Shown piece after piece: positions 15,701 through 18,700 of a DNA stretch of 64,000 bases (within the stretch, counting starts at the first letter, position 1; each line of letters begins with the position of its first letter). The stretch is taken from positions 10,726,690 through 10,790,689 of the forward strand of contig NC_092092.1 in assembly GCF_045679555.1 (NCBI RefSeq). Direction: 5' to 3'. A program made the position numbers and the translations under genes. The notes under the pieces were generated by a model. It saw only the letters and a program-made list of their open reading frames with translations. It was not told where the DNA came from and did no database searches. The DNA is from Salvelinus alpinus (Eukaryota; Chordata; Actinopteri; Salmoniformes; Salmonidae).

Positions 15701-18700
15701 ATCTGGTACTGGTACTCCCTGTTAGCTCCCTATATAGCTCCATTCTTGTTTATTTAATGTTATTTCTTGTGTCACTGTTTTTCTATGTATTATTATTAAA
15801 TTCTGCATCGTTGCGAAGGGCTCGTAAACAAGCATTTCAGTTACACCCATTGTATTCAGCGCATGTGACAAATAAAATGTGATTTGAAAAATGAAGAGAT
15901 CTCAGTGATTTTGAAATAGGGGTCTCAAAGGAGCATCGGGGTGTGTGTGTCTCAGTAACTCAGTAACTCTCAACCCAATTGAAACACTTATGGGAGATTC
16001 TCGAGCGTCACCTGAGACAGCGTTTTCCACCACCATCAACAAAACTGATGGAATTTCTCCTGGAAGAATGGTGTCGCATCCTTCAAATTTAGTTCCAGAC
16101 ACAAGTAGAATCTATTCCAAGGTGCACTGAAGCTGTTCTGGCTCGTGGTGGCCCAACCCCCTATTAAGACACTTTATGTTGGTGTTTCCTTCATTTTGGC
16201 AGTTACCTGTACATGAATGATACTGACCCCGTGAGTGAAGCTACTCCACTGTACCTGTACATGAATGATACTGACCCCGTGAGTGAAGGTACTCCACTGT
16301 ACCTGTACATGAATGATACTGACCCCGTGAGTGAAGGTACTCCACTGTACCTGTACATGAATGATACTGACCCCCTGTGAGTGAAGATACTCCCCTGTAC
16401 CCGTACATGAATGATACTGACCCCCTGTGAGTGAAGGTACTCCACTGTCTTGGTAATAGTGCAGAGAACAGCAGAGGCCTCTCGCTCAGAGAAACACTTC
16501 TGATAGAGTATTCTGTCCAGCAGCTCCCCACCTCTCATCAGCTCCATCACAAGGTACACATACCTCCCATCGTCATAGACCTAGGGGCCAAAAATACATT
16601 TTAATACCAAGTGGAGGTATTTCTGAGCCAAAGACTACATTAGTCTAGACCTCACAGCCAACAAACAGTGGCTAGTAAAATCCAATAAGGACATACGTTT
16701 GAAGTCAGAAGTTTAAATATATTTGGCCAAGGTGTATGTAAACTCAGTTTTTCACAATTCCTGACATTTAATCATAGTAAAAAATCCCTGTTTTAGGTCA
16801 GTTAGGATCACCACTTTATTTTAAGAATGTGAAATGTCAGAATAATAGTAGAGAATGATTTATTTCAGCTTTTATTTCTTTCATCTCATTCCCAGTGGGT
16901 CAGAAGTATACACACACTCAATTAGTATTTGGAAGCATTTACCTTAAAATTGTTTCACTTGGGTCAAGCATTTCGGGTAACCTTCCACAAGCTTCCCACA
17001 ATAAGTTGGGTGAATTTTGGCCCATTCCTCCTGACAAAGCTGGTATAACGGAGTCAGGTTTGTAGGCCTCCTTGCTCACACACGCTTTTTCAGTTCTGCC
17101 CACAAATTTTCTGTAGGATTGAGGTCAGGGCTTTGTGATGGCCACTCCAATACCTTGACTGTTGTCCTGAAGCCATTTTGCCACAACTGTGGAAGTATGC
17201 TTGGGGTCATTGTCCATTTGGAAGACCCATTTGCGACCAAGCTTTAACTTCCTGACTGTTGTCTTGAGATGTTGCTTCAATATATCCACATAATTTTCTT
17301 TCCTCATGATGCCATCTATTTTGTGAAGTGCATCAGTAACCACCTGCAGCAAAGCACCCCCACAACATGATGCTGCCACCCCCATGCTTCACGGTTGGGA
17401 TGGTGTTCTTCGGTTTGCAAGCCTCCCCCTTTTTCCTCCAAACATAACGATGGTCATTATGGCCAAACACTTCTATTTTTGTTTCATCAGACCAGAGGAC
17501 ACTTCTCCAAAAAGTACAATCTTTGTCCCCATGTGCAGTTGCAAACCGTAGTCTGGCATTTTTATGGTGGTTTTGGAGCAACGGCTTCTTCCTTGTTGAG
17601 CGGCCTTTCAGGTTATGTCGATATAGGACTCGTTTTACTGTGGATATATACTTTTGTACCTGTTTCCTCCAGCATCTTCACAAGGTCCTTTGCTGTTGTT
17701 CTGGGATTGATTTGCACTTTTAGCACCAAAGTACGTTCATCTCTAGGAGACAGAACGCGTCTCCTTCCTGAGCGGTATGACGGCTGAATGGTCCCATGGT
17801 GTTTATACTTGCGTACTATTGTTTGTACAGATGAACGTGGTACCTTCAGGCGTTTGGAAATTGCTCCCAAGGATGAACCAGACTTGTGGAGGTCTGCAAT
17901 TTTTTTTCTGACGTCTTGGCTTATTTCTTCTGATTTTCCCATGATGTCAAACAAAGAGGCACTGAGTTTGAAGGTAGGCCTAGAAATACATGCACAGGTA
18001 CACCTCCAATTGACTCAAATGATGTCAATTAGCCTATCAGAAGCTTCTAAAGCCATGACATAATTTTCTGGAATTTTCCAAGCTGTTTAAAGGCACAGTC
18101 AACCTAGTGTATGTAAACTTCTGAACCACTGGAATTGTGATACAGTGAAATAATCTGTCTGTAAACAATTGTTGGAAAAATGACTTGTGTCATGCACAAA
18201 GTAGATGTCCTAACCGACTTGCCAAAACTATAGTTTATTAATAAGAAATTTGAGGAGTGGTTGAAAAACGAGTTTTAATGACTCGAACCTAAGTGTATGT
18301 AAACTTCCGACTTCAACTGTAGAAGATAAAATGAAATATTAGGGTCAGTGAAAATTCAATGAAGTTTGCAGGGGCACATTTTTTCTTAGGTATGCAAACT
18401 GGCAAGGTTCTCTGCCCTTATGGAGGGCTTTCAGCATGTGCGTGTGTATGGGAGTCATTGAATGATGACATACATCCTTCAGCGTGATGATGTTTGGATG
18501 CTGCCCGTATCTCAACAGAATCTCAATTTCCTCAGATGGATCTTTCTTAACTCTGTCGATGATCTGAAAGAGACACACCCCCTGTTAAATTACAACTGCT
18601 TGGTTCCCTCATGATAAAATGTGACTCAGAGCATTGTCTGCACAACATACAGAATCATTGTCGCTGCGTGAATCATCCTAAGGGAGACTATATTATAGTT

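Follow-up and report, generated by a model that had tools for sequence, protein, structure and literature searches.

The splice donor of exon 16 in an RSK2-type kinase gene of Salvelinus alpinus lies inside a minisatellite that ends in an apparently Tc1-like transposon. The gene is on the minus strand of a 64,000-nucleotide stretch of contig NC_092092.1 (the window), and a second copy of the gene, on C3, has the same donor and no array. We consider it likely that the array is neutral, or mildly costly: a transposon-edged minisatellite that places multiplied decoy donors beside the native donor. For the choice between 5′ splice sites it amounts to a clean natural experiment: one intron holds the native donor in unchanged form, four copies identical to it and a better-matching donor made by the transposon, and the genome also contains a counterpart without the array. 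The transposon edge, a testable route to new minisatellites beside exons, is a fresh twist on an otherwise known kind of array.

The exon 16 array and its transposon edge

We identified exon 16 by translation and by a search of PDB sequences as an intact RSK2-type kinase exon of 159 nt (16422 to 16580, minus strand; 53 codons, VYDDG...YLHSQG), with RPS6KA3 (RSK2) as the best match of its peptide (E = 1.2e-24). A search with the human RSK2 sequence placed exons in order along the minus strand between 40362 and 12651. The peptide of exon 17 (14777 to 14938, minus strand) starts at 14938, which sets the end of exon 16 at CAGGGG and its native donor at GTCAGT (GGG/GTCAGT; 16416 to 16421, minus strand). 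A search of the genome with the exon 16 peptide returned 15 places, including six whole-exon matches at 79-100% identity, which we took to be RSK genes. The exon end CA(G/A)GGG/GT occupies the same position in all six loci, as read from sequence and not from transcripts, and an array at this donor is present in one of the six, the window locus. GTCAGT is an unusual donor, with C at +3, and is common to the window (16422) and the C3 copy (L003, near 4916); the other four RSK loci have GTA or GTG.

Tandem Repeats Finder placed the array at 16204 to 16448 on the minus strand (period 48, 5.0 copies, 95% matches, score 426), and splitting this strand by script gave five copies of 50, 50, 48, 48 and 49 nt, a 50/48-bp unit. 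With head-to-tail copies of a unit within ~10-100 bp, the array is a minisatellite by definition. It begins 27 nt inside the kinase exon, and its unit comprises these 27 nt of exon end, 16 nt of native intron, TA and 5 nt of transposon end (CAGGT); host exon and intron account for 43 of the 50 nt, and the match to the transposon is confined to TA and the five terminal nucleotides. Copy 1 has TACGGGT where the other units have TA followed by CAGGT. Copies 3 and 4 are identical, copies 3 to 5 have a 2-nt deletion in common, and substitutions differ between copies. When the array was used as a genome query, it matched the window itself and one other place, a 43-nt piece on C3. An earlier note, made from the sequence of this window, had described a minisatellite with a 48-50 bp unit at the exon 16 donor, and the array is indeed there; of the unit content that it gave, about 20 last exon bases plus GTCAGT, the GTCAGT stands and the exon share is corrected to 27 nt. 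Two features had escaped it, the transposon edge and the second GT donor that every unit contains (+21, +71, +119, +167 and +215).

The right edge of the array, used as a genome query, gave at least 43 matches (40 of 3172 candidates scored). Among the best-scoring matches, similarity starts at TA/CAGGTAACTGCC or a close variant in all 19 other copies; TA itself is present in 18 of the 19, and the preceding bases look unrelated. Insertion at TA and a terminus common to the copies characterize the element as probably Tc1-like. Comparison with the genome copies places its remnant at 15968 to 16211 (minus strand), with the terminus at 16211 and an approximate inner limit; the alignment runs to nt 244 in 10 of the 19 copies and to nt 215-311 in the others. 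Measured against a consensus of these 19, the window copy has 17 differences in 234 sites, and the 19 themselves have 7-23. Pieces of a Sleeping Beauty-like transposase were found in other copies (PDB 5cr4, E = 2.2e-8; Pfam DDE_3 below the cut-off), and a 41-aa piece from the window gave no Pfam match. Tc1-like elements carry an inverted repeat at their other end. Ends of a second Tc1-like family (ACAGTTGAAGTCGGAAGTTTAC) lie at 8080-9539 and 18299-18320 of the window, with one inverted pair 1.46 kb apart.

The C3 counterpart has the same exon end and GTCAGT donor followed by a short intron, and neither an array nor a transposon was found at this donor; at the place homologous to the transposon insertion in the window there is a TA. 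Judged from coordinates, intron 16 spans ~1.48 kb in the window and ~0.11 kb in the counterpart. The two coding sequences, compared over 626 codons, have a dS of 0.156 and a dN/dS of 0.14, values that indicate purifying selection and fit two retained, selected gene copies. Six differences from human RSK2 are confined to the window copy and ten to the counterpart. The two copies would date from the salmonid genome duplication.

We infer the following order of steps for the amplification. First, intron 16 of the RSK2-type gene would have received a Tc1-like transposon at a TA 17-18 nt beyond the exon end. A tandem duplication would then have fused two breakpoints, one in the exon, 27 nt from its end, and the other 5 nt into the transposon end, giving a 50-bp unit that contains the splice donor, and slippage or unequal exchange, with a loss of 2 nt in one copy, would have raised the number of copies to five. 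In the first copy, the exon and its native donor are intact. Since each unit contains TA and transposon-end bases, the array must have multiplied after the insertion. The founding junction, read directly from the sequence, has a single shared base (A) between its breakpoints, an indication of end joining and not of slippage along a long repeat. The founding break may have come from a transposase cut close to the transposon end.

Transposon ends and splice donors as proposed starting points of minisatellites

The transposon edge raises a broader proposal that would complete this explanation, namely that Tc1-like ends are recurrent starting points of minisatellites, nucleating arrays whose units combine neighbouring host DNA with the outermost 5-12 bases of the element, so that the donor would be incidental here. 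If this were true, an insertion beside an exon could give rise to splice-donor arrays, to which the element itself would add a strong donor. We regard the proposal as tentative and rather unlikely. Among the matches listed, terminus arrays occur at C4, C7:15.45 Mb, C11 and C39, where terminal bases of the element are joined to different sequence in units of 43, 20, 23 and 22 bp, respectively; C21 and C34 are less clear. A search for the terminus repeated in tandem at a spacing of 18-48 nt gave 432 matches against 0 for a reversed control, and a word of like shape from inside the element gave 0. However, a full element has two ends and probably one copy of the internal word, a comparison in which 4-6 loci against 0 are weak (~0.09-0.2), and most of the matches listed come from one C11 locus. 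Many tandem matches lie at this locus (G000:C11:27190038 to 27222289), with a 23-bp unit that starts with the same Tc1-like terminus and 32 kb between the outermost matches listed. Random placement already predicts some arrays over transposon ends, and adjacency to an element was confirmed at the window and C39 only. In the C39 case (L052, G000:C39:7894450-7894850), a 22-bp array runs directly into a Tc1-like element, and its unit consists of 13 nt of TA plus terminus and 9 nt of other sequence. Nine terminus matches were inspected by eye: two are clear arrays (the window and C39), C34 has two copies that may be nested, and six, including C21, have no obvious tandem structure. This evidence for transposon ends is suggestive, and small.

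A second donor of the same gene is also spanned by an array, as the earlier note had reported. We located this companion minisatellite by Tandem Repeats Finder and by coordinates at 14392 to 14624 (minus strand), with a 38-bp unit at the exon 18 donor AGG/GTAAGC. This donor has a U1 duplex energy of -8.9 kcal/mol, and the five further copies, AGG/GTAAAC, are weaker (-6.2 kcal/mol). The array is bounded by a direct repeat, GCAGGG; no transposon was seen at its edge, and the window and its counterpart realign 20 nt beyond it. No array was found at the exon 18 donor of the C3 counterpart, where GCAGGGT is present at the donor and again 52 nt further on. The transposon edge with one shared base at exon 16, against the GCAGGG repeat at exon 18, indicates that the two arrays began differently. 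The window contains 12 minisatellites (15-100 bp unit, at least 2.5 copies, at least 80%); two of these reach into a located exon, in each case at the donor. Five long minisatellites of 7.9-17 copies lie in introns of the same gene (19507-20049, 20675-21000, 22179-22823, 27588-27886 and 37715-38456), and none touches a located exon edge.

The earlier note had taken the two arrays to suggest that minisatellites in this genome are seeded recurrently at splice donors. A mechanism of this kind might act, for example, via the CAGG/GGGT word or the transcribed state of donors. We consider such seeding improbable. Two donor arrays in one gene do speak for it, as does the donor word GCAGGG, which is one arm of the repeat that bounds the exon 18 array. 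When the 12 window arrays were placed at random, two or more coincided with donors in 0.8% of window-wide trials and 3.6% of trials confined to the gene, a post hoc figure for a place that was picked as odd. The null model behind it relied on approximate positions for 20 exon ends, among them the stop codon, and did not include first exons. The founding breakpoints of the two arrays differ, however, and no founding mechanism is common to the two. Tandem pairs of two donor words, counted genome-wide and weighted by copy number, numbered 1449 and 1144, about half as many as the 2790 and 2600 pairs of the reversed words, an outcome without excess over a control that is itself imperfect. As a single word, CAGGTAAGT had 0 occurrences and its reverse 4 in 273,754 bases; the reversed word may thus be commoner from the start, and the genome counts would then be compatible with an excess at donors.

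Donor-spanning arrays do recur. In the gene for inositol-pentakisphosphate 2-kinase (ippk; L053, G000:C2:511950-512250), an array with a 60-bp unit starts at the donor of an exon (...RYCPLDLFSG; PDB 5mw8, E = 1.7e-5) and is the third donor-spanning array. Another place on C2 (L051, G000:C2:101207600-101208500) has an acceptor-like tract, ~47 nt and then a donor, AACAG/GTAAGT, that opens an array; it gave no Pfam match and is probably a short exon with a donor array. These two cases come from 11 upstream regions that we read, which cover all eight distinct arrays listed for the first donor word and 3 of the 18 places listed for the second; the matches listed reach C2 for the first word and C4 for the second, and the C2:512 kb locus was chosen partly for its exon-like unit. 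Among the other regions, L048 has an acceptor-like tract upstream of the array and no Pfam match. No exon signs were seen by eye upstream of L044, L045, L047 and L049, of which L044 and L045 are near-identical copies of one array and L047 gave no Pfam match. At L046, L050, L054 and L055 the array or similar repeats continue upstream.

Chance could provide for such cases. Sixteen 10-kb stretches of the genome, picked at round coordinates and containing 5,296 N, hold 16 minisatellites, half of them in two stretches. At this density or that of the window, and with an assumed 300,000-450,000 donors, ~1,100-3,100 donor-spanning arrays would be expected genome-wide; in a genome so rich in repeats, many are expected by chance. 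The gene region on C3 (49.9 kb) has four minisatellites, none at a located donor by coordinates. We conclude that the donor arrays seen need nothing beyond chance, though an excess at donors may exist.

Reading frames and predicted donor use

The native donor and its four copies each form a duplex of -5.7 kcal/mol with the U1 end. The copies lie on the minus strand at 16366 to 16371 (+50), 16318 to 16323 (+98), 16270 to 16275 (+146) and 16222 to 16227 (+194), and their use would shift the frame in each case, all four additions being 2 mod 3, as the earlier note had calculated. The second GT donors match U1 better: CGG/GTACAG in copy 1 (16395 to 16400, minus strand; +21) has -6.4 kcal/mol, and CAG/GTACAG in copies 2-4 has -7.1 kcal/mol. 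The donor CAG/GTAACT that the transposon end forms at its junction (16201 to 16206, minus strand; +215) reaches -8.0 kcal/mol, the best U1 match among the array donors, compared with -11.6 kcal/mol for the full consensus. Over 17 scored donors of the gene, the energies range from -4.5 to -10.2 kcal/mol, a range in which the native site is weak, though not exceptional; as the strongest match is the transposon-made donor, the native one is not the obvious winner.

The array offers nine alternative donors. The +21 site, the sole in-frame alternative, would add 7 aa; the other eight lead to a stop at nt 17 of exon 17, which is 146 nt before the next junction. Under the usual rule for nonsense-mediated decay, a stop at such a distance before a junction is expected to trigger decay. 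If intron 16 is retained, the frame stays open through the array to a TAA at 16205-16203 (minus strand) that lies within the transposon end and is supplied by it, in agreement with the stop that the earlier note had put near 16203. We infer that the native donor is probably still in use and that the other array donors are probably decoys, whose use would mostly give a premature stop early in exon 17 and probably nonsense-mediated decay.

A functional switch is another reading of the array: the number of decoy copies would set the level of RSK output via unproductive splicing, and the second gene copy would make this tolerable. Nine extra donors, eight of which lead to a premature stop, and an array-free gene on C3 are consistent with such a switch. 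It is nevertheless very unlikely, since the array is absent from the exon 16 donor of the five other RSK loci, and the native donor and last exon bases are the same in the window and the C3 copy. An assembly artefact or a wrongly placed exon end is hardly credible: short-unit arrays are prone to mis-assembly, but the array has distinct substitutions in its copies and a 2-nt deletion common to copies 3 to 5, and the exon end falls at one position in six RSK loci.

Relation to known arrays

Among the matches listed in open-licence literature, we found no paper on the exon 16 array or on a class of donor-linked minisatellites in salmonids. Lievers, in 2001, reportedly described an effect of the human CBS VNTR on splicing. 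This 31-bp VNTR, c.1444_1467+7(16_21), has by its name a unit of 24 exon nt and 7 intron nt and is the closest precedent, as each copy carries an exon end and a donor (PMC2630376). The exon 16 array shares this unit type, with GTCAGT in all five copies; the CBS array, which is polymorphic, differs in having 16-21 copies and a 31-bp unit, and the excerpt that describes it mentions no transposon end (PMC2630376). In salmonids, the rainbow trout gene irak3 also has exon-edge repeats, which lie in the intron next to the exon concerned and alongside intronic micro- or minisatellites (PMC6763605). According to the excerpt, these four repeats involve the first 15-17 nt of exon 5 at its 3′ splice site, whereas the exon 16 array is at a donor (PMC6763605).

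Tandem duplication is also known to multiply splice signals inside genes, and intron gain by duplication of AGGT segments is described, in the portion of the source consulted, with reference to Rogers 1989, ATP2A1 and fission yeast (PMC4974935). In the exon 16 array, as known here from sequence alone, it is an existing donor that is multiplied, and no new intron is seen (PMC4974935). Human minisatellites in segmental-duplication genes, some at exon-intron boundaries, likewise have units, of ~30 bp, that alter gene structure; these cases are in recent paralogues, and the excerpt reads the boundary cases as novel intron formation (PMC2812944). A review, as far as its excerpt extends, lists transposable elements as sources of tandem repeats, terminal inverted repeats included (PMC9659126). 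As in those cases, a transposon terminus contributes to the repeat unit at exon 16, but the unit is mostly host sequence, with TA and five terminal nucleotides that match the transposon (PMC9659126). Minisatellites have been proposed to originate by slippage between direct repeats of 5-10 bp (Haber and Louis 1998, cited in an excerpt of PMC6947457). The exon 18 array, with its GCAGGG arms, fits this model (PMC6947457); the exon 16 array, whose founding breakpoints have a single base in common and which is edged by a transposon, is unlike it.
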